DNA of 34,965 nt from Nitrospiria bacterium (lineage in GTDB: Bacteria; Nitrospirota; RBG-16-64-22), in the NCBI GenBank assembly GCA_919903025.1, contig CAKKSE010000148.1, positions 1-34,965 on the forward strand, read 5' to 3'. Below, piece by piece: positions 29 to 29,763 of the stretch. The notes under the pieces are model-generated. The model searched no databases. It was not told where the DNA came from and was given only the letters and a program-made list of their open reading frames with translations. The translations under genes were made by a program, and so were the position numbers. Position 1 is the stretch's first letter. The number at the start of each line of letters is the position of its first letter.

Positions 29-107
29 CCCTTACCCCCTACCCCCTAATCCCTATCCCCGTTCTTCTTCTGCCCTTTCCTTCCCCTAGCCCCTACCCCC
101 TAATCCC
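29..107. repeat. Degenerate heptamer repeat TANCCCC, two blocks (29-60, 83-107); G-rich on the coding strand
   Basis: TACCCCCTACCCCCTAATCCCTATCCCC and TAGCCCCTACCCCCTAATCCC. Confidence 0.85.
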
Positions 108-1168
108 GTTCTCTTTCTGTCTGCTCGATACACGTAAGCCAGGACCTCCGCCACCGTCTGGTACAGGGCGGCGGGAATCTCCCGCCCGATCTCGACAAGC
201 TTGTGAAGCGTCCGGGCGAGGGGCGCGTTCTCCACGACCGGCACGCCGGCGGCGCGGGCCGTCTCGCGGATCCGCTCCGCGATCAGCCCCGCCCCCTTCG
301 CTACGACGGTCGGCGCGCGCATCTCTCCCGCCTTGTACTGGAGCGCGACGGCGAAGTGCGTCGGGTTGGTGATGACGACGTCGGCCTTCGGAACCTGGGA
401 CATCATCCGCCGCCGGGCCGCCTGCATCTGGAGCGAGCGGATCCGGCTCCGGATCAGCGGGTCCCCTTCCTGCTGGCGGTGCTCGTCCTTGACCTCCTGC
501 TTCGTCATCCGGAGGTTCTTCTCGTAGTCGAACCGCTGGTAGGCGTAGTCGAGCGCCGCAAGAACAATGAGAACGAGCGAGCAGGCGCCCAGGATCCTGA
601 GCGTCACCCGGAGAAAGAAGAACGCGACTGTCGCCGCGTCCGACTGAACCAGGCCGGTCAGCTCCGGAACGAGCCCCCGGACGGAGAGGTAGGCCGCGTA
701 CGAAAGGACGAAGATCTTCACGATCGATTTCGCGAGTTCCACGGCCGCCGTAAGGGAGACCAGCCTCTTGAACCCGGCGATCGGGTTGATTCTGCTCCCC
801 TTCGGAGCCAGCGGCTCGCCCGTCCACAGAAAGCCGACCTGGGCGACGTTCGCCGTGACGCCCGCCAGCAGGGCGGCGCCGAGGAGCGGCGCGAGGATCA
901 GACCCACCTGGGACGTCGTTGCGATCAGCATCTCGTGAAGCGACCGCGTCGTGAGGGAGACGACGCCGGCGCCGTCGAGGATCCGCCGGGTGAGGTCCGC
1001 CATTCCCGAGCCGAGGCCGGTCGCGCCCGTGGCGAGGACGAGAAAGGAGGCGATGAGAACAGCCACGGAGCCGACTTCCCTGCTCCTCGCGACCTGCCCC
1101 TTCTGCCGCGCTTCGGAGCGCCGTTTGCCGGTCGCTCGTTCGGTTTTTTGATCGCGATCTTCAGCCAT
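86..1168 (-). CDS. flhB: Flagellar biosynthesis protein FlhB
   Basis: 360-aa ORF with the FlhB N-terminus (AEDRDQKTERATGKRRSEARQKGQVARS), TM segments and the NPTH autocleavage motif (ITNPTHFAVALQY). Confidence 0.97.
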   Translation of the reverse strand: MAEDRDQKTERATGKRRSEARQKGQVARSREVGSVAVLIASFLVLATGATGLGSGMADLTRRILDGAGVVSLTTRSLHEMLIATTSQVGLILAPLLGAALLAGVTANVAQVGFLWTGEPLAPKGSRINPIAGFKRLVSLTAAVELAKSIVKIFVLSYAAYLSVRGLVPELTGLVQSDAATVAFFFLRVTLRILGACSLVLIVLAALDYAYQRFDYEKNLRMTKQEVKDEHRQQEGDPLIRSRIRSLQMQAARRRMMSQVPKADVVITNPTHFAVALQYKAGEMRAPTVVAKGAGLIAERIRETARAAGVPVVENAPLARTLHKLVEIGREIPAALYQTVAEVLAYVYRADRKRTGLGGRG

Positions 1169-1186
1169 TGAGTCCTAACCCCAAGT

Positions 1187-1260
1187 CGCAGTCAGCAGTC
1201 AGCTTTCAGCACTCAGCTTTAGGCCGTAAGCCGACCGCTGAACGCTGACTGCTGAGAGCT
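1187..1260. repeat. Inverted heptamer arrays TCAGCNN / GCTGANN
   Basis: TCAGCAGTCAGCTTTCAGCACTCAGC ... GCTGAACGCTGACTGCTGA; TCAGCAGTCAGC and GCTGACTGCTGA are perfect reverse complements. Confidence 0.85.
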
Positions 1261-1272
1261 TCCCCGCTTCTC

Positions 1273-1320
1273 CATTCACCGATTCACCGCTTCACCGATT
1301 CACCCATTCACCGCTTCACC
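1273..1320. repeat. Octamer tandem repeat (NNTTCACC), 6 copies, at the fliR 3' end
   Basis: CATTCACC GATTCACC GCTTCACC GATTCACC CATTCACC GCTTCACC. Confidence 0.9.
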
Positions 1321-2090
1321 GACTCTAGGATCGCCATGCTGTCGCGCAAGGCGCCCATCAAGGCGGCCTCCACGACCGGCCCGAAGAACGGGAGAGTCGC
1401 GCCGAGGACGACGAGCCCCAGGGCGATCGTGATTGGAAATCCCACGATCAGAAGGTTGATCTGCGGCACCGTCCGCGCCACGACGCCCAGCACCACGTTC
1501 GCGAGGAAGATGGCAGCCACGACGGGAGCGGAGAGCTTGAGTCCCAGTCGGAAGATCTCCCCGCCCGCCTGGACCAGGTCGCCCGCGATCCCGGAAGAAA
1601 GACCGGCCCCCAGAAGAGGAAGGCTCTTGAACGAATGGCCCACGAGCCGGAGGAACTCGTGATGGGCGTTGGTCCCCAGGAACAGCAGGAACGCGAAGAG
1701 CATCTGGAGCTGGCCGACGAGCGACACCTGGGCGTTGTTCTGCGGGTCGATCGCGCTCACGATCCCGAACCCCATGTTGAACCCCATGAGCGTTCCGGAC
1801 AGCTCGATCCCGGCGAAGACCGCGCGGACCATGAGTCCCAGCGCCGCGCCGACGAGGACCTCGCCGAGCAATCCGACGACAACCGCCGCGGGCTCCGACA
1901 TGAACCCATGCGGCAGGGGCGGAACGGCCGGAAAGAGGACGACAGCCATAGCCAAGGCAAGACCCGCCTTGATCCTGACGGGGACCGAGCGCGCGCCCAG
2001 GAGGGGAATGGCCGCGATCAGGATCGACACCCGCGCGAAGATCAGCCCGAACCGGAGAAACCCCTCGATCGGAAGCGTCAGAGAGATCAT
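1308..2090 (-). CDS. fliR: Flagellar biosynthetic protein FliR
   Basis: 260-aa multi-TM ORF between fliQ and flhB; FliR-like segments (GFNMGFGIVSAIDPQNNAQVSLVGQLQ). Confidence 0.95.
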   Translation of the reverse strand: MISLTLPIEGFLRFGLIFARVSILIAAIPLLGARSVPVRIKAGLALAMAVVLFPAVPPLPHGFMSEPAAVVVGLLGEVLVGAALGLMVRAVFAGIELSGTLMGFNMGFGIVSAIDPQNNAQVSLVGQLQMLFAFLLFLGTNAHHEFLRLVGHSFKSLPLLGAGLSSGIAGDLVQAGGEIFRLGLKLSAPVVAAIFLANVVLGVVARTVPQINLLIVGFPITIALGLVVLGATLPFFGPVVEAALMGALRDSMAILESVKR

Positions 2091-2103
2091 CGTGTCGGCG
2101 CCT

Positions 2104-2373
2104 TCACCGGATCATGGCCGGAAGGTTCTGAAAGACCTGCGCCGTGTACGACACGAGCGTCTCGGTCATCCAGGGGAAGAAGAACAGGAGCGCCGCGGCC
2201 ACGGCCAGGATCTTCGGGATGAAGGTGAGGGTCATCTCGTTTATCTGGGTAACAGCCTGGAAGATGCTGATGGCAAGCCCCACGACCAGGGAGAGAAGGA
2301 GCATCGGCGCCGAGACTAGGAGCGTCGTCGTGAGCGCCCGCTGACCGATGTCGAGGACCATCTCCGGCGTCAT
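2104..2373 (-). CDS. fliQ: Flagellar biosynthetic protein FliQ
   Basis: MTPEMVLDIGQRALTTTLLVSAPMLLLSLVVGLAISIFQAVTQINEMTLTFIPKI is a canonical FliQ sequence; the ORF-track start at 2451 is probably too long. Confidence 0.95.
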   Translation of the reverse strand: MTPEMVLDIGQRALTTTLLVSAPMLLLSLVVGLAISIFQAVTQINEMTLTFIPKILAVAAALLFFFPWMTETLVSYTAQVFQNLPAMIR

Positions 2374-2392
2374 TCGTGTCTCCGCCGCGGTC

Positions 2393-3157
2393 TCACGCGA
2401 AGCTCCGGACGAGCGTCCCGACGTGGAGGGCCCACCAGTCCACCAGGACAAACAGCATCAGCTTGAACGGAAGAGAGATCACTATCGGCGGCAGCATCAT
2501 CATTCCCATCGACAGGAGAACGGACGCCACGACCATGTCCAGGATCAGAAACGGGATGTAGATCATGAACCCGATCTGAAAAGCCGTCTTCAGCTCGCTC
2601 ACGATGAAGGCGGGGATGACGACGCGGATCGGAAGATCGGCCTCCGTCGACGGGACGGAAATGTTCGCCATCTCCACGAACAGGAGAAGGTCTTTCTCCC
2701 TCGTCTGCCTCAGCATGAACTCCTTGAGCGGGCCGGCCGCGGCGATGAGAGCCTGCTCCTGGCTCATCTCTTTTTTCAAATACGGCTGGAGGGCCGTCTG
2801 GTTCACCGTCTCCCACACCGGCCCCATGATGAAGATCGTCAGGAAAAGCGCCAGGCCGACCAGGACCTGGGTGGGGGGAGACTGCTGGGTTCCCAGCGCC
2901 TGCCGGAGAAATCCCAGGACGACGACGATCCGGGTGAACGACGTCATGAGAATCACGAACGCGGGGGCGAGCGTCAGAGCGGTCAGGAGAAGGAGGATCT
3001 GGACGGTCACCGCCAGGTTCGCCCCGCCGGTCGGCGCCAGCGGGAGCGTCCCGCCGGGCGCCGGCGGCGGCGCCGCCCCGGCCTGTCCGGCCGTGACGGC
3101 CAGAAGAAGAATGGCGGCGGGGATGAGGGCCTTTCCCGGCGTTCTCGCCTGGCTCAT
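2393..3157 (-). CDS. fliP: Flagellar biosynthetic protein FliP
   Basis: Signal peptide plus FliP signature ([24 protein letters not shown]...[25 protein letters not shown]-like). Confidence 0.96.
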
Positions 3158-4350
3158 CGCCTCCCTCCCTCGCCGCCCATCGCCCCCCGCCCGACCAGAT
3201 TCACTCTTTCCTGAATGCCGGCCAGGGCCGCTTCGAGGGCGTCGTCCGGGGAAGAGGCAGTGCCCGCGCGCGTTGTTCCGTCACCGTGGTCGTCACGGCG
3301 GCCGCCGCGCCGGACGGACCGGCCGAGGATCTTGCCAAAGAGATCGTTGCTTTTCGTCTGCGGAGGCGTTTCCCGGCGCGGAGACGGATCGTGACGAACG
3401 TCGGCCTGCGGGACCGGTCCGTCCTCGACGCGCGAGAGGAGCTGGACTTCTCCGGGCGTGACGCCCAGGACGAGCGTCTCGCCGCCGACTTCCACGACGG
3501 CGACCGACACCTTGGGCCCCAGTCCATGCCTTGCGACCACGCGGATTCCCGGCCCCGATCGGGCGGCCGTCCCGTTCGAGAGGACCCGCTTCGCTCCGTA
3601 GGCGAGGGCGGCCAGAAGGGCCAAGACGAGCGCCAGGCCCGAACCCATTTTGATCAGGGCCCGGCCGAAGTCGGGCGGACCCGCGCCCGCCGCCGGCTCT
3701 TTCGCCGTCCCCTTGTCTTCGCTCGGGCGGGTGCCGAACGCGCCGCGCTTGTCTCCGGCCGCGCTCGCGGATGAAGCGGGCAAAAGCCCCTCCGGAACGG
3801 AGAGCGATCGGGTGTCGACGGCAGGCAGGACCACGGCCCCGGCTGGCCCCCCGGCTGGCCGGGGCTGGACATCGGCAACCCTCGATGCCGCCGGCTCTTC
3901 CCCCGCCTTTGGATACGGGAAGTCGATCAGGAGCCGGCCCTTCTTCGCGTGGACGCTTCCGCGACCAATGAGCCGCCGCCCTTCGGGCGTCAGCAGGAGG
4001 CGGACGCGCGCGATCTCGTCCTCGTATTGGTAGACGAAGACCTGCCGGACGAACGGCGAGTCCACGTCGATCGTCCGCTTCGGCGGATGCACGATCACGC
4101 CGGGAAGCTCGATCTGGATTCGATCCTCTCTGTAGTCGATCTCGGGAAGCGGCTGGCCCACCGGCCGGCGGAAATGGAGAAAGACGCCCAAGGCGGATTC
4201 GGCCGGCTGGACCGACACGTCATCCAGGTGGTTGACCCCGCCCCCGGCCCACGCCTCCCCGCCGATCATCCATCCCGCGAGTATCGTCCCAACCAGCGCC
4301 AGAAGCCTTGTTCCGTTCTTCTTGTCTCTTCGATTCACCGATTCACTCAC
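3154..4350 (-). CDS. fliO: FliO-like flagellar assembly protein with an N-terminal AMIN-like exported domain
   Basis: 398 aa. Signal peptide, then a beta-rich AMIN-like region ([20 protein letters not shown]...[13 protein letters not shown]), then TM and a FliO-like domain ([35 protein letters not shown]). Stop overlaps the fliP start (ATGA). Confidence 0.82.
4332..4350. repeat. Octamer repeat (about 2 copies) at the fliO start
   Basis: GATTCACCGATTCACTCAC. Confidence 0.7.
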
Positions 4351-4363
4351 CAGCCGTAGGCAG

Positions 4364-4418
4364 TCGGCTTTCAGCTTTCAGCCCCAAGCTGACCGCTGAA
4401 CGCTGATTGCTGAATGCT
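4364..4418. repeat. Inverted heptamer arrays TCAGCNN / GCTGANN (fliO-fliN gap)
   Basis: CTTTCAGCTTTCAGCCCCAAGCTGACCGCTGAACGCTGATTGCTGAATGC. Confidence 0.85.
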
Positions 4419-4423
4419 TCCCC

Positions 4424-4479
4424 GTTTCACCGATTCACCCATTCACCTATTCACCGTTTCACCTATTCACCGACTCACC
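4424..4479. repeat. Octamer tandem repeat, 7 copies, abutting the fliN stop
   Basis: GTTTCACC GATTCACC CATTCACC TATTCACC GTTTCACC TATTCACC GACTCACC. Confidence 0.9.
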
Positions 4480-4480
4480 G

Positions 4481-4912
4481 TCACGCAAGCTGTTTGATTC
4501 TTTCGATCGGGCTCACGATGTCCGTCAGGCGGATCCCGAACTTCTCGTTCACGACGACGACCTCTCCGCGGGCCACCAGTTTCTCGTTCACGTAGACCTC
4601 CATCGGCTCCCCCGCGAGCTTGTCGAGCTCGATCACCGAGCCCTGGCCGAGCTGGATCAGATCCTTGATCACCATTCGGGTCCGGCCGATCTCCACCGAC
4701 ACGTGGAGAGGGAGGTCGAGGACGAAGTCGAGATTCCCCGGCGCGCCGGCCGCCTCCGCGGAAGGGGCGATCGGCGCGAACGCCGCCGGCCGAAGCTGGG
4801 GCTGGGGGGACTTGGGGGCCTCGGCTGCGGGCGGCGCGGGGCTTTCCGAAACCTGGGCCTCCCAGGCCGCGGCCATGTCTTTTTCCTTGTCGCTCACCGA
4901 TTCACTCGCCAT
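4481..4912 (-). CDS. fliN: Flagellar motor switch protein FliN
   Basis: C-terminal SpoA domain ([68 protein letters not shown]); start chosen at MASESVSD, overlapping fliM. Confidence 0.95.
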
Positions 4913-5894
4913 CGTCCGCCCCCTTTGCCGCGAATTCCGCAATTTTCAGCGCGTAGTTTCCCCGGACGATGCCCGGATGCGCCCGCCACTTGGTGACTCC
5001 CTGGACATCGACCTCCATCGGCATGCCCACTTCCCGGTCCAGCGTGATGACGTCGCCCACGCGCAGATCAGTGACCTCTCGGACCGTCAGACGCGCCCCG
5101 CCAAGCCGCGCGCGGATGGCCACGGGAACGTCGACGAGCCGGCGTCGGAGGAGCTGCATCCACCGCGTGTCCACATCGAGCTGATCGCTCTGGAACCCGG
5201 CGTACAGCTTGTCCTTGATCGGCTCGACCGTGGAGTAGGGAATCATCAGACTGAAGGTCCCCAGAGAGTTCTCCAGCTCGAGCTCGTAGGTCACGACGAT
5301 GACGACCTCCGTCGGCACGACGATCGTGGCGAACTGGGGATTGATCTCCGAGCGCGTGTGGACCATCTTCACCTCGTGGACCGGCTTCCACGCCCTATCC
5401 AGGTCGTCCAGAATCATCGTGAGCGTCTTCTTGATGATCCGCTGCTCGATCGCCGTGAAGTCGCGTCCTTCCACTTTCATGTGAGTCTGCCCGAATCCGC
5501 CGAAGAAATTGTCGACGAGGGAAAAAACGAGCCGGGCGTCGACGACGAGGATGACGAATCCGCGCAAGGGCTCCATCCGACAGATGTTGATGCTCGTCGG
5601 AACGGGGACCGTCTTCATGAACTCCCCGAACTTCATCATCTCGATCCCCTTGACGTTCACGTCGATCACTTTCCGGAGGGCGGAGGAGAGGGTGACGCGG
5701 AAGATGCGCGAGAACCTCTCGTTGACGATCTCGAGTGTCGGCATCCGCCCCCGGATGACCCGCTCGTGGCTCGCCAGATCGTACTGACGGACGCCGGACT
5801 TGTCGGCTTCCTCGGTCTTTTCCGTCTCGATCTTGCCGGACGAGACGCCGCGAAGCAGCGCGTCGACTTCTTCTTGGGAGAGAATGTTGGCCAT
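4902..5894 (-). CDS. fliM: Flagellar motor switch protein FliM
   Basis: [18 protein letters not shown]-terminus and FliM core. Confidence 0.97.
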
Positions 5895-5903
5895 CGCCTT
5901 ACC

Positions 5904-5927
5904 GATTCACCGATTCACCGATTCACC
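5904..5927. repeat. Octamer tandem repeat, 3 copies, fliL-fliM gap
   Basis: GATTCACC x3. Confidence 0.85.
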
Positions 5928-5936
5928 GTCTCTCGC

Positions 5937-6503
5937 TCACTGGATCACAAAATCCGTGAAGTAGACCGACTTGGCCTTTCCATGGGCGAGGAGTTGGTCG
6001 ATCCGGGCGATGATCTCCGACCTCAGCTGGCTCTTTCCCTGGGCCGAGGATATCTGTTCGTACGTTTTGCTGGAGAGGAGCGTGAGGAGGGAGTCGCGGA
6101 TCTGCGGCACGCGGACCTCCGCTTCCTGCTTCGCGGACGGAGAAGAAAGCTCGACGTGCATGGCGATCTTGAGGTAGCGGGTCCCCTGGTCGTCGGCCAG
6201 ATTGATGATGAACGGCTCCAAGGGGAACATCTCGCCCGCCAGCTTCTTGGCTTCCTCGGGGGTGAGCTTCGCGTCCGGCTTCTTGGCCGGCTTCTCCGGC
6301 GCCGCCTGCGCCGCGCCGCCTTCTTCGCCCTTCGGGTGGGAGAAGAACTTCACGTAGGCGAATGCCCCGCCCCCGCCCAGAACAAGGACCAGGACGGCCG
6401 AGATGATGATCCACTTGAGCGCCCCCCCCTTCTTCTTGGGGGCCTCCTCGCCCTCTTTCTTCTCGTCTTCCTTTTCCTTCTCGGCCACGCCCCTGTCCTC
6501 CAT
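5937..6503 (-). CDS. fliL: Flagellar basal body-associated protein FliL
   Basis: Single TM plus FliL domain (PLEPFIINLADDQGTRYLKIAMHVEL). Confidence 0.93.
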   Translation of the reverse strand: MEDRGVAEKEKEDEKKEGEEAPKKKGGALKWIIISAVLVLVLGGGGAFAYVKFFSHPKGEEGGAAQAAPEKPAKKPDAKLTPEEAKKLAGEMFPLEPFIINLADDQGTRYLKIAMHVELSSPSAKQEAEVRVPQIRDSLLTLLSSKTYEQISSAQGKSQLRSEIIARIDQLLAHGKAKSVYFTDFVIQ

Positions 6504-6533
6504 TTGACGATCCGTTGAGCAACAAGGGTAAGA

Positions 6534-6548
6534 GCAACCGCGGTGCCA
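6534..6548 (-). promoter_or_regulatory. Sigma-54 (-24/-12) promoter for the fliL-flhB operon
   Basis: Minus strand reads TGGCACC-GCGG-TTGC, matching TGGCACG-N4-TTGC, ~31 nt upstream of the fliL ATG. Confidence 0.85.
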
Positions 6549-6690
6549 CGGCAGTCCAGCGTCAAGAAAACAGAAAACCTTGATTGTTCAATCGGTTGCA
6601 TATCGCAGACGAGAGGGATGGAGAGAGGGGCAAAGGCGCGTCCGTCATAAGATTGACTGGCCGTCGGTGGAGCCGTGACGAGGGGAGAAG

Positions 6691-6715
6691 AGTTTCGAGT
6701 TTCGAGTTTGGAGAG
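6691..6715. repeat. Heptamer repeat GAGTTTC-like, downstream of the flgE terminator
   Basis: GAGTTTCGAGTTTCGAGTTTGGAG. Confidence 0.65.
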
Positions 6716-6741
6716 TGGAGTGGGAGCGCGAGGGAGTCGCG

Positions 6742-6800
6742 AAAAAAAGGCCTCAGACCCGGGCCTCGGGGATTGTCCCCGAAGCCCGAAGCCTGAGGCC
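6742..6800 (-). terminator. Intrinsic terminator downstream of flgE
   Basis: Minus strand: GGCCTCAGGCTTCGGGCTTCGGGGACAATCCCCGAGGCCCGGGTCTGAGGCC followed by TTTTTTT; long GC stem and U-tract. Confidence 0.9.
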
Positions 6801-6819
6801 GGAGAGGGAAGCCGCTCCC

Positions 6820-8049: not shown

Positions 8050-8071
8050 GGTGAATCCTCCTCTATCGCGA

Positions 8072-8803
8072 TCAGAACAAACTGCTCAGGTTCGCCGACT
8101 CGCCGGAAGTCTCGGGCGCGGGCGCCGCTTCCGTCACCTGCCCGAGCGGAATCTTGCGCCCGCCCACGCTCAGGTAGGCCCCGCTCTCGTCGTATTCAAC
8201 GGCCGTGACGATCCCGGCGGACTCGGTCGTGGCCGTCACGGACTTCCCGCCGGCGTCCATGCCGCCCACCGTGTACCGGTACTCGCCCGCGGACACGGCG
8301 GTTCCGGCGTCATTGCGTCCGTCCCACGTCACGCGGTGGCTCCCCGCCGGGCGGATTCCCTCGTCGATCTTCCGCACGGGCCGTCCGTCCGGCCCGTAGA
8401 TCTGGACCGTCACCTGCTGGGCGCTCGTCGGAAGAGAATACCCTATCGAAGAGCTCCCTCCCGCCGCGTGGGTGACAGTGTCGCCGCTGAACCGGACCTG
8501 CTTCCCGAGAAACGAGACCGCGGCGCTCCGCTCGGCGTTCCTCTGCGCGCCAACGAGCGCCTGGATCCCCTCGTTGATCCCGTAGAGCTGTTCGAGGGAC
8601 GAGAACTGGGCGAGTTGCGCGATGAACTCCGTGTCCTTGAGGGGATTAAGCGGGTCCTGGTTCTCCATCTGCGTGACCAACAGCTTCATGAAGTCGTCTT
8701 TCCCGAGGACCATCCCGTTCGCCCCGGCCCCGGTCTTCGCGCTTGTCCGCGCCCCGGCCCCGGAGGCCGGCATTGTTGTCTGAATCTCGCTCGTTGTCAC
8801 CAT
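8072..8803 (-). CDS. flgD: Flagellar hook assembly protein FlgD
   Basis: [41 protein letters not shown] signature. Confidence 0.96.
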
Positions 8804-8825
8804 GGTCTTCTCTCCTCGCTCTGCC

Positions 8826-8856
8826 GACTCACCGATTCACCCATTCACCGATTCAC
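8826..8856. repeat. Octamer tandem repeat, 4 copies, fliK-flgD gap
   Basis: GACTCACC GATTCACC CATTCACC GATTCAC. Confidence 0.88.
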
Positions 8857-10076
8857 ACCCGGATGTCGATTCCCGTTCCCGCGGGGCGGGTCGCTTCCAC
8901 AAACGTCGCTTCTTCCGTCACCCCGGCGTTGTCGGCGGACTCTCCCGACGCCCAGGCCAGTTCCTCCCTCTCCCGCGGACTGCCCTGTTCCCCTCCCACG
9001 AGGACGGTGAACTGGTCGACCGTGAATCCCTGCTCCCTCAGCGCGTCGCGGAGCTGCTGTCCGCCCGCCTCCAGGATCGCCCGCGACAGGATGTTGTCAG
9101 TCACGAACGTCGCCCGGACCGACTGGTCGTCCACAAAGAGCGTCACTCTCACGGAACCGAGCGCCTCGGGAACGAGCTGGAGACGGACTTCCGTCGTCCC
9201 GGCGCGGGCCGGCAGGGCCCGGATCGTTTCGACGACCTGGGAGACGGCGGAAGGGCGGGATACGGACGCCGTCTCCTTCGTCCCGTCGGCGCCCACCGCA
9301 GTCGACGCCGCGGATGTCCCGCCCGGCACATTCGCGGGTGACGATTCCGTCTGGGGGCCGCCGCCCGCCTGGGATTCAGCGATGCCCGCGACTTGTCCGA
9401 GGGATCCTTCCAGACCTTCCAGGGCCGCCGCATCGGTCGCGGCCTGGCTCTCGCTTCTCGCCGCCGCGTGGAAATAGGCGCGGATTCTCTTCACGAAATC
9501 CGCGACCTCCGACGGCGGGAGCCCCATGCCGTCAAGGATCTTCGCCAGCTCGGGAGGAGGCGCGTTCTCCTCCGGAGACGCCAGCCAATCGGCGACGCTC
9601 TTTCTGAGAATCGCCCCCGGCGTCGACGCCGGGCCGGAAGTGTCGCCCTCAAGAGCGGCCGCTTCCCCCTGCGCCCCTTCGGATCCCTCGGCTGTCTGCG
9701 GGGCTTGCGCCCCCTGCCCGAGGACAAGGGCCAGGATCTCCCACATCAACCCCTCCCAGTCCACTCGGCTCGCCGTGTCGGTCCCTTCCGCCTGTCCCTC
9801 GACCGGTCCCGTCCCTTCGCCTTCGCTCACGGCCTGGTCGAGTGTCTCCGTGAAGCTCGATCCGCTCGTCCGGTCCGCCGCATCCGCGCCTGTCGAGGAA
9901 GCCGCCGGCACCGCCGATTCCCCCGGTGCGGCGGATGGTTCGGCCGACCGCCCCTCGATCTCCCTCGCGAGAACGGTGTCGAACGCCTCCCCCCCGGATG
10001 TTCGTGACGGACTCTGCGGCCCCGCTTGCGGAAGAACCGCCTCCAAACCCGATCCGATCGCGCTCACCTGCGCCAT
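8853..10076 (-). CDS. fliK: Flagellar hook-length control protein FliK
   Basis: Low-complexity N-terminus and FliK C-domain (TTEVRLQLVPEALGSVRVTLFVDDQSVRATFVTDNILSRAILEAGGQQLRDALREQGF). Confidence 0.9.
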   Translation of the reverse strand: MAQVSAIGSGLEAVLPQAGPQSPSRTSGGEAFDTVLAREIEGRSAEPSAAPGESAVPAASSTGADAADRTSGSSFTETLDQAVSEGEGTGPVEGQAEGTDTASRVDWEGLMWEILALVLGQGAQAPQTAEGSEGAQGEAAALEGDTSGPASTPGAILRKSVADWLASPEENAPPPELAKILDGMGLPPSEVADFVKRIRAYFHAAARSESQAATDAAALEGLEGSLGQVAGIAESQAGGGPQTESSPANVPGGTSAASTAVGADGTKETASVSRPSAVSQVVETIRALPARAGTTEVRLQLVPEALGSVRVTLFVDDQSVRATFVTDNILSRAILEAGGQQLRDALREQGFTVDQFTVLVGGEQGSPREREELAWASGESADNAGVTEEATFVEATRPAGTGIDIRV

Positions 10077-10086
10077 CTCTGCCCCC

Positions 10087-10110
10087 GATTCACCGATTCA
10101 CCCATTCGCC
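10087..10110. repeat. Octamer tandem repeat, 3 copies, upstream of fliK
   Basis: GATTCACC GATTCACC CATTCGCC. Confidence 0.85.
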
Positions 10111-10121
10111 AATGCAATGAC

Positions 10122-10297: not shown

Positions 10298-10303
10298 CCC
10301 CAT

Positions 10304-16342: not shown

Positions 16343-16375
16343 CTGCTCTCGCCCTTCACCGATTCCCCCATTCTT

Positions 16376-16941: not shown

Positions 16942-16944
16942 CGG

Positions 16945-17419: not shown

Positions 17420-17550
17420 CTTCCCCCCCTGGAGTCGGGGCGACCTCTCATCCCTTGTCTTTCAATGAGATACAAGGAGCCTTCGATGCCCCTCCCCTGA
17501 GAACAATCGCGATGATCGTCCAGGGGTCGGCAAATTCTTCCCGCTCCGCG

Positions 17551-18897: not shown

Positions 18898-20288
18898 CGG
18901 TTTGCCTCGGAAAGGCGGGGCGGACGGCTCCCTGCGGGAGGAACGGACGTCTCCCCCCTGGGCAGGAGGAGGGTGAACGTCGCTCCCTTTCCGGGACCCG
19001 CGCTCTCGACGCTGATCGTCCCCCCGTGGGAGTGGATGATGCCGTGGACGATCGCCAGCCCCAGACCGGTCCCCCTCTCCTTCGTCGTGAAGAATGGATG
19101 GAAGACGCGGTCCCTGTGGTCCGGCGCAATCCCCGAGCCGCTGTCCGCGACCGCAATTCCCGCAAAGTCACTGGATGATTCGCCGTTGGCCCCCGGGCCG
19201 CGCGCCAGGGAGACGCGGAGGACGCCCCCGTCCGGCATGGCCTGGACGGAGTTGAGGAACAGGTTCAGGAAGACCTGGCGGAGAAGCTCCGGGTCGGCGT
19301 AGACCCGCTCGTCCCGCGGAACGTCCATCGCCAGCGAGACCCCCTGCGACTGGGCCAGGGGCTGAACGAACTCGAGCGACTCGCTGATGATCGGCGCGAT
19401 CGGGACGGTCGCGAACGCGGGCAAATGGGGCCGGACGAACGCCAGCATGTTCGTGACGATATGCGAAAGGGCCCGGACGCCGTTCACGACGTGATCGACC
19501 AGGTTCCGCGCGCCCGGGCGGTCCTCCAGGTCTTCCCTCAGCATTCCCGCGAAGAGTTCCATGCTCGCGAGTGGATTGCGAATCTCGTGGGCAAGCTGCG
19601 CGACCATCTCCCCCATCGCGGCGATTCTCTGCTGGCGCTCCGCCTGATCCTCCAGGCGCCTGAGATGCGTCACGTCCTGGACGAGGACGACGGCCCCGGG
19701 GCTCTCCCGGCGAGAGAGCGATCGACCGTCTTCCCGAAATCCCCCCTCCCCCCCCTTTGTCAAAGGGGGGATGGGGGGATTTTCAGCCCGGACCGATGCG
19801 CCCCCTTCCAACCTTGAGAGCGTCACTTGCAGCGTCCGCTCCTCGCTTTGTCCCCCGCCCACGGTGCACTCAATCGAAACCGGTCCGTCCGCCGCGGCGG
19901 ACGCGGACGGATAGAACCGGTCCCAGACCGCGATGCCGAGGGCCTCGTCGATCGAAAGGCCCGCCGCTCCACGCCCCGCGCCGAGAATCCGTTCGGCCGC
20001 CTGGTTGACCGTGACGATCCGGCCGGACGCGTCCGTCGAGATGACGCCCGTCGCCAGCGAGTTGAGGAGGCGGGAGAGGTAGGCCCGCATCGCCTTGTTC
20101 TCAGTGAGCGACTGCTCGAGCGCGTCCCGCGAAACGGCCAGCTCCTGGCGAAGCTCGCGGACCCGTTCCTCCAGCCCCTGGTAGTTGTGGGCGAGGCGTT
20201 CGGACGCCTCCGTAAAGAACCGAAACGCGTCGTTCAGGAGATGGATCCTCTCCGCCCCGGGTTGTCTTCCCGCCAGTCTTTCGCTCAT
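18894..20288 (-). CDS. Sensor histidine kinase, FlrB/FleS-like (cytosolic, PAS + HisKA + HATPase)
   Basis: PAS segment, H-box GEMVAQLAHEIRNPLASMELFAGML, N/G boxes (NLFLNSVQAMPDGG, DSGSGI, GTGLGLAIVHGIIHSHGG); ATGA overlaps with both neighbours. Confidence 0.92.
   Translation of the reverse strand: MSERLAGRQPGAERIHLLNDAFRFFTEASERLAHNYQGLEERVRELRQELAVSRDALEQSLTENKAMRAYLSRLLNSLATGVISTDASGRIVTVNQAAERILGAGRGAAGLSIDEALGIAVWDRFYPSASAAADGPVSIECTVGGGQSEERTLQVTLSRLEGGASVRAENPPIPPLTKGGEGGFREDGRSLSRRESPGAVVLVQDVTHLRRLEDQAERQQRIAAMGEMVAQLAHEIRNPLASMELFAGMLREDLEDRPGARNLVDHVVNGVRALSHIVTNMLAFVRPHLPAFATVPIAPIISESLEFVQPLAQSQGVSLAMDVPRDERVYADPELLRQVFLNLFLNSVQAMPDGGVLRVSLARGPGANGESSSDFAGIAVADSGSGIAPDHRDRVFHPFFTTKERGTGLGLAIVHGIIHSHGGTISVESAGPGKGATFTLLLPRGETSVPPAGSRPPRLSEANR
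19738..19783. repeat. C-rich/G-rich palindromic repeat inside the histidine kinase ORF
   Basis: AATCCCCCC(C)TCCCCCCCCTTTGTCAAAGGGGGGATGGGGGGATTTT; translates as NPPIPPLTKGGEGGF. Confidence 0.85.
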
Positions 20289-22462: not shown

Positions 22463-22796
22463 GATTGAGCTCCTCGAGTTGGCGGATGATCTCGTTGTTC
22501 TGCTTGATTATCAACAGTTGGAGCTTCGCTTGGGTCCGCGAGGCGATTGCGATCTGCCGAAAGAGGTCGGACCGGGATGTGGTGAGAACCTCCTCGGCCT
22601 CGGAACCCTTCTCGGCATGTTGCCCCTGTGTCCAAAGTCTGTCGAGTTCCTCCGTGAGGAGGAGGATGGTCTTGTCTGGAACGACGGCAGGCGCCCCCCC
22701 CTTAACGGCCACGGGGCCGGCCCCCCAAGCGGGTGCCCCGCCGAAAAGGAGAAGGACGGCGGCAACTAGATGGAAAGGGCGCGAGCGGATGAGCAA
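22437..22796 (-). CDS. Small exported coiled-coil protein, function unknown
   Basis: Signal peptide (LVAAVLLLFGGAPAWGA) plus helical region; TTG start with GGAGG RBS; 26-bp overlap with the TPR gene. Confidence 0.65.
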   Translation of the reverse strand: MLIRSRPFHLVAAVLLLFGGAPAWGAGPVAVKGGAPAVVPDKTILLLTEELDRLWTQGQHAEKGSEAEEVLTTSRSDLFRQIAIASRTQAKLQLLIIKQNNEIIRQLEELNRGISRRDR

Positions 22797-22988
22797 GAAG
22801 GCACCTCCAGCGTTGGGAACGGAGAAGGACTAAATCAAGACTTATGCCGGGATATTGCAGGGACGACGAATGAAAGGAAGGATCGAAAAGTCAGTTACTT
22901 ATGAGGATACGAGCGTTGCAGGGCTGATGTTGGAAGTGGGCGCCGCGTCAGGAATATGACTACCGCGCGAAACAACTGGCGGACGCTC

Positions 22989-24401
22989 TCATACTTCCGT
23001 GCCCGTCGTCTGCCTGGCGTTCGATTCGGATTGAAGGTTCCGCCGCTTCATCTTCTCTACGAGCGTCGTCCGGTTCAGGCGCAGATACTGGGCGGCCTTG
23101 TTCTTGATCCCGGCCGCCTTCTCCATCGCCTGAACGATCAGACGGTTCTCGAAATCCTCCACGAGCTTTTCAAAATCGACTCCCTCGTCCGGAATCGATA
23201 CGAAAGGAACGCCCTGGTCGCGGCGCCGGCCCAGGATCTTGTCCGGCAGGTCCTCGACGCCGATGACGCCCTCGCCCTTGAGAATGACGAGGCGCTCGAC
23301 CAGGTTCTCCAGCTCCCGGACGTTCCCGGGCCAGTCGTACATCTTGAGCACCTGCATCGCCTCCGGCGCGATGCCGCTTACCGAGCGCCGCTTGTCGGCC
23401 GACAGCCGCTTCAGGAAATGGTCGAGCAGGAGGGGGATGTCCTCGCGGCGCCGGCGCATGGGCGGAAGCGTGACGGGGATGACGTTCAGCCGGTAGAAGA
23501 GGTCCTCGCGGAAGCGGCGCTGTTCGACCGCCTCCTCGAGATTCTTGTTCGTCGCCGAGATGACGCGCACGTCGACCCGGATCGACCGCGTCCCGCCCAC
23601 GCGCTCGAACTCCCTCTCCTGAAGGACGCGCAACAGCTTCACCTGGAGGTTCGGGCTCATGTCGCCGACTTCGTCGAGGAAGATGGTCCCGCCGTGGGCA
23701 AGCTCGAAGCGGCCCATTCGCATGGCGTGGGCGCCCGTGAAGGCCCCCTTCTCATGCCCGAAGAGCTCGCTCTCCAGAAGGTCTTCGGGGATCGCGCCGC
23801 AGTTCACGGGGATGAGCGGACGGTCCCGCCGCGGGGAATTGAAGTGGATCGTGCGGGCCACGAGCTCCTTTCCCGTCCCCGACTCCCCGTAGATGATGAT
23901 CGTGCTGTCGCTGTCGGCGACCCGTTCGATCATCCGGTAGACCTTCTGCATCTCGTCGCTGTCGCCGATCAGGTTCTCGAACCGGTACTTGCGCCTGAGC
24001 TGGCGCTTGAGCGAGCGGTTCTCAATCTGGAGTTGACGGAATTCGATGGCCCGCTGGACGGTCAGCACGACCTCGTCCACCTTGAAGGGCTTGGTGAGGT
24101 ATTCGAACGCGCCGGCCTTGACGGCCCTGACAGCCGTCTCGATCGTCCCGAACCCGGTCAGGACGATTCCGACGATGTCGGGATTGATGTCCCGAACCGC
24201 CTCCAGGACCTCGATCCCGTCCTGGTTGGGCATCCGGAGATCGGTGAGGAGAATGTCGAAGGGCGATTCCCGGGCGGCCGCGATGGCGGCCTCACCGCCG
24301 TCCGCGGTGACGACTTCGTACTGGTTGCGTTCGAGGATCTCTTGAAGAACCTCGCGGGAATGGGGATCGTCGTCAACGACGAGAGCGCGATGCCGGTTCA
24401 T
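22989..24401 (-). CDS. Sigma-54-dependent response regulator (NtrC family; HTH resembles FleQ/FgrM-type)
   Basis: Receiver (ALVVDDDPHSREVL..LLTDLRMPNQDG), GESGTGKE, GAFTGA, C-terminal KAAQYLRLNRTTLVEKMKRR. Confidence 0.93.
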   Translation of the reverse strand: MNRHRALVVDDDPHSREVLQEILERNQYEVVTADGGEAAIAAARESPFDILLTDLRMPNQDGIEVLEAVRDINPDIVGIVLTGFGTIETAVRAVKAGAFEYLTKPFKVDEVVLTVQRAIEFRQLQIENRSLKRQLRRKYRFENLIGDSDEMQKVYRMIERVADSDSTIIIYGESGTGKELVARTIHFNSPRRDRPLIPVNCGAIPEDLLESELFGHEKGAFTGAHAMRMGRFELAHGGTIFLDEVGDMSPNLQVKLLRVLQEREFERVGGTRSIRVDVRVISATNKNLEEAVEQRRFREDLFYRLNVIPVTLPPMRRRREDIPLLLDHFLKRLSADKRRSVSGIAPEAMQVLKMYDWPGNVRELENLVERLVILKGEGVIGVEDLPDKILGRRRDQGVPFVSIPDEGVDFEKLVEDFENRLIVQAMEKAAGIKNKAAQYLRLNRTTLVEKMKRRNLQSESNARQTTGTEV

Positions 24402-24455
24402 GGCGGAACCCTCCAGGGTTCTGACACACCATCATGGTCGAGTCAATTCTTTGAC

Positions 24456-24484
24456 ATTATAAGAAACTTCCAGGGACTTTTCAA
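24456..24484 (-). promoter_or_regulatory. Sigma-70-type promoter upstream of the NtrC-family regulator
   Basis: Minus strand TTGAAA-N17-TATAAT. Confidence 0.75.
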
Positions 24485-24575
24485 GAAATTGTTGGGTGGA
24501 AATTGTTGGAGGAGGGTTCCTCGCTTTCAAGAAATTGGATCTCGTCCTTCGAACAGTGGAGGATTTGTCGGAAGA

Positions 24576-24620
24576 CTCCCCTCCACCTTGATGGGGGAGG
24601 GTGCGGGGTGGGGGTGAGAG
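24576..24620. repeat. Palindromic C-rich/G-rich intergenic repeat
   Basis: CTCCCCTCCACCTTGATGGGGGAGGGTGCGGGGTGGGGGTGAG. Confidence 0.75.
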
Positions 24621-24705
24621 ACGAGGAGACAGAACGACACTTACGCATAAGCCCATCCTTGGGCCAAAGGGCGCTCGCCGGACAGAATTCCTGGAGGGCG
24701 GGTCG

Positions 24706-24885
24706 TTACTTTTTCGCTAGAACCTGCTTCTCGCTCATCCTCGCCCGGTTGGTCATGATCACCGGATCAAGAACGCAACCACAGAAGATGCAATGCCAAC
24801 CGTAGCACGACAGGCTCAGGCTGTCCTCTTCATGGTTGTGGTACCTCTCCCTTACCATCGAACCTTGGCACTTGGGGCATTTCAT
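24706..24885 (-). CDS. Small zinc-ribbon protein (59 aa), absent from the supplied ORF track
   Basis: Manual translation MKCPKCQGSMVRERYHNHEEDSLSLSCYGWHCIFCGCVLDPVIMTNRARMSEKQVLAKK*; two CxxC pairs (CPKC, CIFC); GGAAGGAG RBS. Confidence 0.8.
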   Translation of the reverse strand: MKCPKCQGSMVRERYHNHEEDSLSLSCYGWHCIFCGCVLDPVIMTNRARMSEKQVLAKK

Positions 24886-24932
24886 TGGCTTTCTCCTTCC
24901 GATGCGAGCCCCGCGCGACGGGGTCTCGGATC

Positions 24933-24938
24933 ATTATA
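24933..24938 (-). promoter_or_regulatory. -10 element (TATAAT) upstream of the zinc-ribbon gene
   Basis: Perfect TATAAT on the minus strand; no convincing -35 at 17 nt. Confidence 0.5.
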
Positions 24939-25252
24939 ACAGCAACCGACCTGGCATTATTCCAATTCTGCCACGCGGATAACCTTTGCACACCCCGTAC
25001 CATGCCGGCAAATGCACGAATCCGCTATATTATCAATATGTTATACTTAAACAGGACGTCTAGGTCGTCCAACAACGCGTTTCGATATTGAAACATGGCG
25101 CTGGGTAGAACGCCGTTTTCGGACGTAACTATGCTATTTTTCTGGGATAGCGCCGCGTCACGAAGTTGAAACGAGCCGTCAGAGAAATGGATGCAGGGGC
25201 TGAGCGGTGGTTGCGACGGAGGGATCTCTGTAACTATTTGCTCGGAAAGGGA

Positions 25253-26647
25253 TTATGGCCGATTGGGCCGATCTATACCCAATTCCCTCATTCGACGCCA
25301 AAGAGTTGACCGGCTCATGCCGAGCCTCTTGGCCGTGGGAATGATGTTCCACCCGGACTGGTCCAGCGCCCTCTTGATGAGTTCGCGCTCGAGCGACCTG
25401 AAAGGATGCGGCTCCCGCAAGGCCACGTCGATGACGCTGGCGTTCGGATGGTAGATCGTCAAGGGAAGGTCCTCGGGCAGGATCGTGTTCCCGTCACAGC
25501 AGGCGAAGGCATGCTCGATGACGTTCTGGAGTTCGCGGATGTTTCCGGGATAGTCGTAGTTGAGAAGGAACTTCATGGCCTCCGGGGAGATGTTGTTGAT
25601 CTTCGCCGGATGAGTCTCCTGGAAGCGAGAGACGAAGTGGCGGATGAGAAGCGGGATATCGTCCCGCCTCTCCCGGAGCGGCGGCAAAGGGATCGGCACG
25701 ACATTGAGCCGGTAGAACAGATCCTTCCTGAACTCTCCGGTCTCGACGGCGCGCGCAAGGTCCTTGTTCGTCGCCGCGATGAGCCGGACGTCCGCCTTGA
25801 TCCGCCGGGAGTCGCCGACCCGCTCGAACTCGCCGTTCTCCAGCACGCGCAACAGCTTGGCCTGCGTCTTCGGGGGGATCTCCCCCGCCTCGTCGAGGAA
25901 GAGGGTCCCCCCGTCGGCCATCTCGAACCGGCCCACCTTGTCGGCGATCGCCCCCGTGAAAGCGCCGCGGACGTGGCCGAACAGCTCGCTCTCGATGAGT
26001 CCCTCGGAGAGCGCCGCGCAGTTGACCTTTACCAGCGGCCGGCCTTTCCGCGGGGAATGCCGGTGGATGGCCTCGGCGATCAGTTCCTTGCCCGTGCCGG
26101 ATTCACCCGTGATCAGGACGGTCGACCGCGTCTGGGCGATCTGCGGAATGACGCCCAGGATCTGGGCCATCCGGCCGTTCTTCGAGACGATCCCGTGGGT
26201 CTCCGCGCTCCCGTTGGGGCGGGCCGACAGTTCCTTGATGAGCGAGATGTCGCGGAAGATCTCGACGCCGCCGATCACCTCCCCCGACTCGTTCCGGATG
26301 AGGGCCGTCGACAGAGAGACGGGGATCTCCGTCCCCGCCTGCGTCCGAAGGACCGTCTCGAAGTTGGCCAGCGGCTCCCCCCGGTCGATCGTCCGGCGAA
26401 GGACGCATCCGCCCATGCAGGCGTGCGTCCGCACCATCTCCCGGCAGGGGCGGCCGAAGATCTCGATCCGCTCGCCGCACCCCAACAGCTCCTTGGCCGC
26501 GCGGTTCATGTAGAGAAGCTGGTAGTCGAGCGAGACGGCCACGATCCCGTCGGCGATCGAGTCGAAGATGATCTGATGGTCCAGCCGGTCGAGGATCGGG
26601 CGGGGCGGGGCGGACGAAAGAGAAGCGTCCGTTCGGGCGATATTCAT
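25253..26647 (-). CDS. Sigma-54-dependent transcriptional regulator with N-terminal PAS domain (Cys-containing)
   Basis: PAS (IFDSIADGIVAVSLDYQLLYMNRAAKELLG) with CREMVRTHACMGGCVLRRT, AAA+ GESGTGKE and GAFTGA, C-terminal HTH. Confidence 0.93.
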   Translation of the reverse strand: MNIARTDASLSSAPPRPILDRLDHQIIFDSIADGIVAVSLDYQLLYMNRAAKELLGCGERIEIFGRPCREMVRTHACMGGCVLRRTIDRGEPLANFETVLRTQAGTEIPVSLSTALIRNESGEVIGGVEIFRDISLIKELSARPNGSAETHGIVSKNGRMAQILGVIPQIAQTRSTVLITGESGTGKELIAEAIHRHSPRKGRPLVKVNCAALSEGLIESELFGHVRGAFTGAIADKVGRFEMADGGTLFLDEAGEIPPKTQAKLLRVLENGEFERVGDSRRIKADVRLIAATNKDLARAVETGEFRKDLFYRLNVVPIPLPPLRERRDDIPLLIRHFVSRFQETHPAKINNISPEAMKFLLNYDYPGNIRELQNVIEHAFACCDGNTILPEDLPLTIYHPNASVIDVALREPHPFRSLERELIKRALDQSGWNIIPTAKRLGMSRSTLWRRMRELGIDRPNRP

Positions 26648-26715
26648 GGCTCCATTATAGGAACCACGCTCGGCCGGCCCGCAACAGGAATCTCAGCGGC
26701 GGAAGCCGATAAGGT

Positions 26716-28200
26716 TCAGCCCGCTTTCCACCTCAGATCCGGCTCGCGGACGGCGCGGGTGTCGTCGAGCCTGCGGACGGGGGTGGTGTGGGGAGCGGTC
26801 CTGACGACGTCGGGGTTATTCTCGGCCTCGTCGGCGATGGCGGTCATCGCGTCGACGAACCGGTCGATCTCCTCCCTGCTCTCCGTCTCCACCGGCTCGA
26901 TCATCAGGGCTTCTTCGACGACGAGCGGGAAGTAGACGGTCGGGGCGTAGAAGCCGTAGTCGAGGAGGCGCTTGGCGATGTCGCGCGCCTTGACGCCGTG
27001 GGCCGCCTGGTTCCTGGCCGAGAAGACGGCCTCGTGCTGACAGATCCGGTCGTAGGGAAGATGATATCGGCCGCGGAGCTTGACGCGGAGGTAGTTGGCG
27101 TTGAGCGTCGCGATCTCCGCGACCCGCCTCAAGCCCTCCGCGCCGAGGGATCGGATGTACGCATACGCCCGGATGAGGATGCCGACGTTCCCGTAGAAAG
27201 CGTGGACCTTCCCGATCGACTTCGGCCGGTCCCAATCGAGCCGGTATCGGTCTCCCTCCTTTTCAACCAGAGGAACGGGGAGATACGGAACGAGCGATTC
27301 CGCGACCCCAACCGGGCCCGCGCCCGGCCCGCCTCCGCCGTGCGGCGTGGAGAAGGTCTTGTGGAGGTTGAAGTGGACGACGTCGAACCCCATCTCGGCG
27401 GGGCGCGCGACGCCCAGGAAGGCGTTCAGGTTCGCGCCGTCGAGGTACATGAACCCCCCGGCCTCGTGGACGATCCGGGCGATCTCGACGACGTTCTCCT
27501 CGAAGAGGCCGAGCGTGTTCGGGTTGGTGAGCATGAAGGCGGCCGTCTCGGAGGAGACTTTCTTCCGGAGGCCGTCCAGATCGACCAGGCCGCGGCCGTC
27601 CGACTTCACCTCGATCATCTCAAACCCGGCGATGGCCGCCGACGCGGGGTTCGTCCCGTGGGCGGAGTCAGGGATCAGAACGATGCGCCGCGGCTTCTCT
27701 CCGGGTGATTGGCCCCGTTCCGCGAGCGCCTTCCGGATCATGAGCATGGCCGTGAACTCGCCGTGTGCCCCGGCCGCCGGCTGGAGCGTCACCCTCGCCA
27801 TACCGGAGAGCTCGCAGAGCGAACGTTCGAGACGATGGAGAAGCTCCAGCAATCCCTGGATGTCGTCCTCGCTCTGAAGCGGATGGACGCCGGCGAGACC
27901 GGCCAGCCGCGCCGCCTCCTCGTTCACCTTGGGGTTGTACTTCATCGTGCAGGAGCCGAGCGGATAGAAGCCGGTATCGACGCCGAAGGAGCGGGTGGAG
28001 AGCTTTGTGTAATGCCGGACGACGTCGATCTCGGAGACTTCGGGAAGGGCCGGGGCGTCATCGGCCAGATGGCCGGAGAAGATCTCCCCCAGCGGCTTTT
28101 CCGGGACATCCAGCACGGGCAGACGGAACGCCCGCCGTCCGGGCCGGGACAGCTCGAAGATCGTCGAAACGGACGCCGTTCTCGGATCGACGTCAGGCAT
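26716..28200 (-). CDS. gcvPB: Glycine dehydrogenase (decarboxylating) subunit 2
   Basis: [75 protein letters not shown]. Confidence 0.97.
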
Positions 28201-28213
28201 CAATCAACCCTCC

Positions 28214-28303
28214 TCGTCCCCCTCACCCTACCCTCTCCCCAAGGGGAGATGGGTCTCTCTTTTGTCCCCTCCCCCTTGACGGGGGAGGGCCAGGGTGGGG
28301 GTG
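28214..28303. repeat. Palindromic C-rich/G-rich repeat, two adjacent units, between/into gcvPA and gcvPB
   Basis: CCCCTCACCCTACCCTCTCCCCAAGGGGAGA... and CCCCTCCCCCTTGACGGGGGAGGGCCAGGGTGGGGGTGAG. Confidence 0.85.
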
Positions 28304-29664
28304 AGCTTGCGCTTGGAAACAACAGCCGAGACGACATCGACCATCCGGTCGATTTCTTCCCGCGTCCGCTTCTCCGTCACGGCGACGAGCCAGAGTCCCT
28401 TCATCTTCTTGTCCAGGGTCCCGGCGTCGAGGCCGCCGACGATCCCGGCTTTTGAGAGCGCCCTGTTCAGGACCGCGGGCCGGACCGGCGTCCGGACGGC
28501 GAACTCCTTGAAGAAAGGAACGCCGGGGAACGCGAGTGAAAACCCCGGAATCGCCGAGAGGCGTTCGGCGGCGTAGCGGGCCTTCTGCGCGCACTGGACG
28601 GCTGTCTCACGCAGACCGCCCTTCCCCAGGGCCGCCATGTGGATCGTCGCCGTGAGCGCGACGAGCGCCTGGTTCGTGCAGATGTTCGAGGTTGCCCGCG
28701 CCCGGCGGATGTGCTGTTCCCGCGTCTGGAACGTTAGGACGTAGCCGCGCCGGCCCTCCGCGTCGACCGTTGCGCCGACGATCCGCCCGGGCATCTGCCG
28801 GATGTCTTTCATCCGAGCGGCCAGAAAACCGAGATACGGCCCGCCGCCGGACATCGGGATCCCCAGGCTCTGCCCCTCTCCCACGACGATATCGGCCCCC
28901 AGGTCGCCCGGCCTCTTGAGGAGACCCATGGCGACGGGATCGAGGGAGACGACGACGCGCGCGCCTCTCTCGCGGGCGATGGAGATGATTTCCGTCAGCG
29001 GCTCCAGGTTCCCCAGCCAGTTGGGATACTGGACGAGAACGCAGGCCGTCTTGGACGATACCCTCTTCCCGAGGTCGGTCAGATCGACGGCGCCGCCATC
29101 CATGCGCGCGTCGACAACCTGAACGGGGAGCCCTTCCACGTATGTTTCGAGGACCCGCCGGTACAGCGGGTTCACGCCCGGAAGGACGACGACCCTGTGC
29201 CTGTCGTCCGCCGCCAGGCGGAGGGCCATCATCGCTCCTTCGGCGACAGCGGAGCCGCCGTCGTACAAGGACGCGTTGGCGGCCTCCATGCCCGTCAGTT
29301 CGCAGACCATCGTCTGAAACTCGTAGATCGTCTGCAGGACGCCCTGGCTGATCTCGGCCTGGTACGGCGTGTAAGAGGTGACGAACTCCGACCGGCCCGC
29401 GAGAGCGGGCACGACGGAAGGAATGGCGTGATCGTAGATCCCGCCGCCGAGGAAGGAGGACCTCGATCCCGCGGCGCGGTTCCTGTCCGCCAGCGCCGAG
29501 ATGTCCCGCAGGACTTCGATTTCGGACTCGGCCGGAGGAAGATCGAGCGGCCGCGCAAGCCGGAGACCTTCGGGGATCGCGCCGAAGAGATCCTCGATGC
29601 GGGAAACGCCGACCGCCGCCAGCATCGCCTGGATGTCGTCTTGTGTGTGGGGAATGTAGGTCAT
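28228..29664 (-). CDS. gcvPA: Glycine dehydrogenase (decarboxylating) subunit 1
   Basis: MTYIPHTQDDIQAMLAAVGVSRIEDLFGAIPE..., FLGGGIYDHAIPSVV, SLYDGGSAVAEGAMMALR; start corrected to 29664. Confidence 0.96.
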   Translation of the reverse strand: MTYIPHTQDDIQAMLAAVGVSRIEDLFGAIPEGLRLARPLDLPPAESEIEVLRDISALADRNRAAGSRSSFLGGGIYDHAIPSVVPALAGRSEFVTSYTPYQAEISQGVLQTIYEFQTMVCELTGMEAANASLYDGGSAVAEGAMMALRLAADDRHRVVVLPGVNPLYRRVLETYVEGLPVQVVDARMDGGAVDLTDLGKRVSSKTACVLVQYPNWLGNLEPLTEIISIARERGARVVVSLDPVAMGLLKRPGDLGADIVVGEGQSLGIPMSGGGPYLGFLAARMKDIRQMPGRIVGATVDAEGRRGYVLTFQTREQHIRRARATSNICTNQALVALTATIHMAALGKGGLRETAVQCAQKARYAAERLSAIPGFSLAFPGVPFFKEFAVRTPVRPAVLNRALSKAGIVGGLDAGTLDKKMKGLWLVAVTEKRTREEIDRMVDVVSAVVSKRKLTPTLALPRQGGGDKRETHLPLGRG

Positions 29665-29676
29665 CAGAGGAACCTC

Positions 29677-29763
29677 GGTGAATGGGTGAATCGGTGAATC
29701 GCTTTCAGGAACAGCCGTGCGGGCCTGACCCTCTTCACCCATTCACCTATTCACCGATTCACC
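29677..29763. repeat. Octamer arrays in inverted orientation in the gcvT-gcvPA gap
   Basis: GGTGAATGGGTGAATCGGTGAATC (29677-29700) facing TTCACCCATTCACCTATTCACCGATTCACC (29734-29763). Confidence 0.88.

Follow-up and report, generated by a model that had tools for sequence, protein, structure and literature searches.

The window analysed here is a stretch of 34,965 nucleotides that makes up the whole of contig C148 in a 2.86 Mb, 230-contig assembly (completeness 98.7%) of a subsurface Nitrospirota genome. Its genes, mostly on the minus strand, include a flagellar operon and gcvT-gcvPA-gcvPB of the glycine-cleavage system, and the junctions between these genes hold arrays of short tandem repeats. 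One family is an 8-nt octamer whose unit on the coding strand is NGGTGAAT, also given as (N)GGTGAAT. The focal genome (G000) was pooled with its closest named relatives from the same genus, the Nitrospirae MAGs NC_groundwater_891_Pr1_S2p5_65_34 (G001) and RBG_16_64_22 (G002). The stretches sampled amount to 814 kb in the focal genome and, for the two congeners together, 588 kb; part of them were selected for array content, which biases array density and leaves the position of arrays relative to their neighbours unbiased. Genes were called with a simple codon-usage caller made for this analysis, tRNA genes were located independently with ARAGORN, and the loci of the congeners are mutually non-independent. 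A gene-caller artefact is unlikely to be the sole cause of the pattern described below, because stop codons do not depend on the choice of start, the tRNA genes come from ARAGORN, and the pattern recurs in two congeners.

The octamer is a genuine repeat family. Its first base is C in 497 units, G in 232, A in 102 and T in 39 across the three genomes, and conservation at the other positions is about 89-98%. After the first base the two T positions vary most, with the GG, the G and the A kept as well or better. The first base is thus C, G or A and seldom T (39/870), though C to T is usually a frequent change. A 15-mer of the octamer, allowing at most one mismatch, has 354 matches in the 2.86 Mb focal genome and 943 and 726 in the congeners, with none for the reversed control in any of the three genomes; searches of further genomes from the phylum gave few matches to the 15-mer or none. 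The 814 kb of the focal genome hold 81 octamer arrays and no array of the reversed unit, and these reversed controls, together with the placement nulls given below, rule out a chance origin of the arrays. The unit includes a TGA, and its 8-nt period shares no factor with 3, so that every frame of an array closes with one identical cycle, GESVNR-stop-I. Antisense copies leave the frames open, giving ATTCACCG read-through ORFs with IHRFTDSP. The only tracts of relevance to quadruplex formation in the octamer are GG or GGG.

The initial annotation held that such repeats supply the termini of several proteins in the window and the linker of another. The peptides and repeats that it quoted are all present and the repeats do run into the ORFs, with corrections concerning GcvPA, the histidine kinase and FliN. 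At the end of FlhB (ORF 86-1168, stop at 86-88), a CCCCTAN heptamer block on the minus strand (29..102; sense TTAGGGG/GTAGGGG) spans the stop and yields the terminal GLGGRG, bearing out the reported TGLGGRG end within a TANCCCC block. The ends of FliR and GcvT, which were said to have the TGA stop inside the octamer, likewise proved to be as described. A minus-strand array with sense NGGTGAAT at 1271..1325 provides the final FliR codons, ESVKR plus TGA, and occupies the same place in G001, where the protein ends in ESVNR; another minus-strand array at 29734..29765 provides KKVNR plus TGA of GcvT.

Both arrays belong to larger structured spacers. Downstream of the FliR array lie inverted AGTCAGC/GCTGACC heptamer arrays (1184..1255, minus strand) that form a strong hairpin, and the 147-nt FliR spacer has a fold of -65.5 kcal/mol (z -5.6). 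In the hairpin between GcvT and GcvPA, the GcvT array provides the G-rich 5' arm, and an inverted octamer array on the plus strand (29674..29704), ending about 9 nt ahead of the GcvPA start, provides the C-rich 3' arm; the fold of this 109-nt spacer is -48.9 kcal/mol (z -4.5). Octamer arms alone have weak structure, a short one at 5898-5932 being stronger (-7.6).

Distant FliR orthologs without an array end (in VMVR, ASMRG or AMGKG) within about one residue of the ESVKR column, and GcvT orthologs usually end with PFYRK plus a few residues. The array therefore swaps the terminal residues and the stop, and the gene end is unmoved. The initial annotation had itself named identical terminal residues in repeat-free orthologs as evidence against its proposal; ends at nearly the same column come close to this, and point to arrays that were laid onto pre-existing ends.

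The remaining flagellar junctions, with all their arrays on the minus strand, show the same arrangement with a few variations. An octamer array at 4418..4481 begins at the FliN stop (TGA, then CGGTGAGTCGGTGAAT and further units), and a second, short one at 4327..4349 contains the only usable in-frame starts of FliO, which are GTG codons. The G001 ortholog of FliO begins with an ATG (MKTPWEW) after an ordinary spacer. The claim of a FliO start inside the octamer is correct, and the array has genuinely captured the start of this gene, a rare event. For FliN, the proposed start (MASESVSD) was confirmed and is octamer-like; however, the stretch involved, GTGAATCGGTGAGCGA at 4888..4907, also contains the FliM stop TGA and is largely common to G001, which shares the N-terminus as MANESVSE. 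Of the other arrays, that at 5898..5932 lies between a FliL-like gene (5937-6503) and FliM, 4 nt past the stop, and that at 8823..8858 lies over the stop of a FliK-like ORF (8853-10076) ending in IDIRV. A short degenerate array (16355..16373) is found immediately upstream of the likely FliE start, and one at 10082..10110, within a 392-nt gap, is among the few that have no called stop as anchor.

The repeat-derived pieces reported for GcvPA and the histidine kinase are also present in the window, but they come from palindromic families and not from the octamer. Palindromic CCCTCTCC-type repeats (28220..28306, minus strand) encode the GcvPA tail, LTPTLALPRQGGGDKRETHLPLGRG followed by the stop. 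This tail, missing in G001 and G002, is a true extension of the protein. At the other end of the gene, GcvPA orthologs begin M-x-Y-I/V-P-H/N-T, which places the start at 29664 (MTYIPHT). The longest GcvPA ORF (start 29742) reads across the antisense octamer array, and automatic callers could misplace the start. In the histidine kinase, in-frame read-through of a CCCCTTTGTCAAAGGGG palindrome (19738..19783, minus strand) produces the linker NPPIPPLTKGGEGGF; the linker is inherited, as G001 carries a diverged form, PPSIPPLKNGGEEGF, at the same place (locus L204). A further palindrome, CCCCTTTGTAAGGGG, which is intergenic in the three genomes, is gene-oriented too, with 19 sense and 5 antisense copies in co-directional gaps.

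Beyond the window, the arrays follow a rule of position and strand. Co-directional gaps of the three genomes pooled contain 138 sense and 20 antisense octamer arrays, and 99 of the 138 sense arrays start over the upstream stop codon or within 7 nt of it, against a null mean of 36.4 and a maximum of 55 in 5000 draws. The focal genome by itself has 45 of 63 sense arrays anchored at a stop, and 5 antisense arrays. Anchoring persists where gaps reach 100 nt or more, with 72 of 106 arrays stop-anchored and 13 beside the start, and in convergent gaps, where 8 of 11 arrays lie no more than 7 nt from the stop codon of whichever gene the array is sense to. On the side of the downstream start in co-directional gaps there is no array excess (26 of 138 observed, 36.5 expected). 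Antisense arrays are placed differently, 8 of the 20 having the start of the following gene at a distance of 8-20 nt. Gene ends with an array are a minority, most having none.

The explanation first offered for this placement was that arrays are retained at tight junctions as portable translation cassettes, with stops in all frames and GTG starts. Several of its premises are sound. The predicted enrichment at gene ends exists at stops (99/138), though not at starts; the octamer period does close every frame, so that the median distance to the next stop beyond the gene end is 7, 4 and 3 codons in the three frames with an array and 37, 50 and 43 elsewhere; the stop codon lies inside the array in 50 of 107 anchored cases (TGA in 45 of these); and FliO of G000 can start only within its array. 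In the other 57 of the 107, however, the stop is outside the array, which follows or merely touches it. GGTGA is also not the Shine-Dalgarno word of this organism, being found in 13 of 336 windows upstream of starts and 10 of 336 background windows, with GGAGG at 80 versus 10. A Shine-Dalgarno or standby-site role for GGTGA was rejected on this lack of enrichment before starts; no 16S gene for a check of its tail was found in this assembly. Nor was extra selection seen on the TGA within the unit, which is kept no better than the GG or the following A. Furthermore, the same position is occupied by GGAGTTC-type heptamer families, whose usual units contain no stop codon.

The tRNA genes provide evidence of a different kind. 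Six octamer arrays, all sense, lie 7-12 nt 3' of tRNA genes: two behind tRNA-Ser, three behind tRNA-Leu (these being orthologous) and one behind tRNA-Gln. Periodic stretches of 7 or 8 nt are present in 18 of 95 tRNA 3' flanks and in none of the shuffled controls, and 16 of the 18 are G-rich and none C-rich. They also occur in 15 of 98 tRNA 5' flanks, partly because clustered tRNA genes share the same spacers. The spacer between tRNA-Ser and tRNA-Arg (locus L243) is built like the GcvT-GcvPA spacer, with a G-rich array, a loop and a C-rich array. Start and stop codons are meaningless at tRNA genes, and therefore translation cannot be what places the arrays there; finding the same orientation behind tRNA genes and behind stop codons separates explanations at the level of transcription from those at the level of translation. 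Arrays behind tRNAs already contradict a general cause in translation, and we regard retention of the arrays as cassettes as highly improbable. The idea describes a real by-product and not the cause, and it does not hold as a general account. Stop codons and protein tails contributed by arrays probably arise incidentally, as the arrays mark gene ends, and are not what the arrays are for.

The rule of polarity extends to other repeats. Among non-octamer arrays with units of 7-9 nt, the G-rich ones are nearer a stop in 64 cases and nearer a start in 14, and the C-rich ones are nearer a start in 22 and nearer a stop in 16. Inverted pairs within one intergenic gap have the G-rich arm first in 19 cases and the C-rich arm first in 2, with 3 balanced. 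An antisense (C-rich) octamer array without a sense octamer partner upstream is found in 9 of 20 cases, and a hairpin between octamer arms is therefore not universal. Relatives can carry CACAGAGG, GGATTAG, GCGGATT or AAGTCCG-type arrays in place of the octamer at a given post-stop site.

One way to account for a G-rich-first rule across several unrelated families is avoidance of Rho-dependent polarity. Sense arrays are G-rich and C-poor; inverted, they would read as the C-rich reverse complement (ATTCACC) and place exposed rut-like RNA after the stop, such that only one orientation would survive. We regard this explanation as very improbable. The orientation persists beside convergent neighbours (8/11), where downstream polarity is irrelevant, and the 9 of 20 C-rich octamer arrays that have no upstream G-rich octamer partner also argue against it.

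The reading that we prefer, while holding the case for it to be evenly balanced, is that the arrays are oriented boundary repeats of gene 3' ends that act, or are tolerated, at the level of RNA. We infer such a role from position and strand alone. Placed directly behind the preceding gene, whether protein or tRNA, with GGTGAAT nearly always on the sense strand, the arrays would be transcribed as a trailer between adjacent parts of a transcript. In many cases the array would supply the G-rich 5' arm of a hairpin between cistrons. What commonly comes next is a palindrome, or a C-rich array complementary to the first, ending short of the next gene. Unrelated heptamer families of the same polarity use the same slots, and copy number varies by species. 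Arrays may be kept or tolerated through an effect on intercistronic RNA at the gene 3' boundary, on its spacing, processing or stability, and not through translation. Creep of an array over the final codons would be possible without lengthening the protein, and an occasional start capture, as in FliO, would be incidental.

Ranking close behind this RNA-level reading, and a serious possibility although short of an even chance, is that the arrays have no function and that transcription biases the insertion or expansion of such repeat DNA toward gene 3' ends and toward one strand, which would leave much the same pattern. Possible routes include single-stranded non-template DNA or cDNA intermediates, and the slot behind a gene may be the safest landing site in compact operons. 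The turnover of families at one slot favours biased insertion, as do the differences in array copy number between congeners and the nesting of palindromes in arrays. At one junction, stop and start overlap in G000, an octamer array with differing internal palindromes is present in G001 and G002, and a heptamer hairpin of unrelated sequence is found in G003. The array-bearing element that separates stop from start in G001 and G002 is also in line with biased insertion; in G002 it has (A)TGA at both ends, which fits either insertion with a short duplication or deletion between the copies in G000. At the junction represented by loci L210 and L211, the congeners have unrelated palindromes within the octamer array, as if arrays were landing sites for palindromic elements. 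Safe landing alone, however, does not predict that arrays stay close against the gene end when the gap measures 100 nt or longer (72/106), and the presence of an array is common to 32 of the 40 congener comparisons that have one, which also speaks against biased insertion.

Short tandem heptamer families in intergenic DNA are known from cyanobacteria as STRR heptamers, which in broad outline differ from the octamer in unit sequence and lineage. The closest parallel is with the GGGGA(C/T)T / GGGAATC arrays of Nostoc and Xanthomonas, 7-nt tandem repeats located between aligned ORFs, with sense arrays at most 50 bp from stop codons and overlapping them, antisense arrays near starts, and lengths that differ between congeners (PMC4692102). 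The arrays described here share the placement of sense arrays near a stop and antisense arrays near the next start. They differ in that the unit is the 8-nt NGGTGAAT rather than a heptamer, with only GG(G) tracts and tighter anchoring (within 7 nt), and in that arrays are also found 3' of tRNA genes, which PMC4692102 does not mention, and several families share slots. The octamer arrays are best seen as a variant of the Xanthomonas/Nostoc pattern, and the placement at tRNA genes is apparently new: no earlier report of this placement or of slot sharing was found in the open-access library searched, and among the papers listed for this lineage and its repeats none dealt with repeats.

Two other systems share some of these features. 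The TAACTGA heptamers of marine Beggiatoaceae have a period coprime with 3, and their forward copies stop every frame while reverse copies leave frames open (PMC4679880). The octamer behaves in the same way, and the reading-frame argument was already made in 2015 for the TAACTGA repeats. These are mostly found just upstream of start codons, some overlapping the ends of upstream ORFs (PMC4679880), whereas the octamer sits behind stops and is not start-proximal (26/138, null 36.5). The REP/BIME elements of E. coli and other bacteria are described in PMC12306157 as intercistronic, often stop-proximal, hairpin-forming and mosaic, and the same paper, citing Liang 2015, reports a translation effect for REPs within 15 nt of a stop. 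REPs are palindromes of 20-40 bp, unlike the octamer arm, which is a tandem, non-palindromic array that by itself has little structure. Typical of REP/BIME elements are also a GTAG or CGTC tag in the palindromic unit and a linked RAYT transposase.

Reports of heptamer and octamer arrays from bacterial spacers recur, with no function generally accepted, and the exchange of families at a single slot provides natural replicates. More tentatively, as a possibility that we consider rather unlikely, a lineage-wide rule independent of sequence may operate, in which intercistronic boundaries are marked by tandem-repeat hairpins, the G-rich arm following the preceding mRNA or tRNA at its 3' end and the C-rich arm lying before the next gene, with interchangeable families. 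If true, this rule would imply an as yet undescribed transcription-coupled maker of such arrays or an undescribed function at RNA 3' boundaries. For annotation, caution is needed in such genomes, where repeats supply the C-terminal residues of many proteins as well as certain starts. If the rule holds, a role at RNA 3' boundaries would be testable in culturable carriers of such arrays, for example Xanthomonas or Nostoc.
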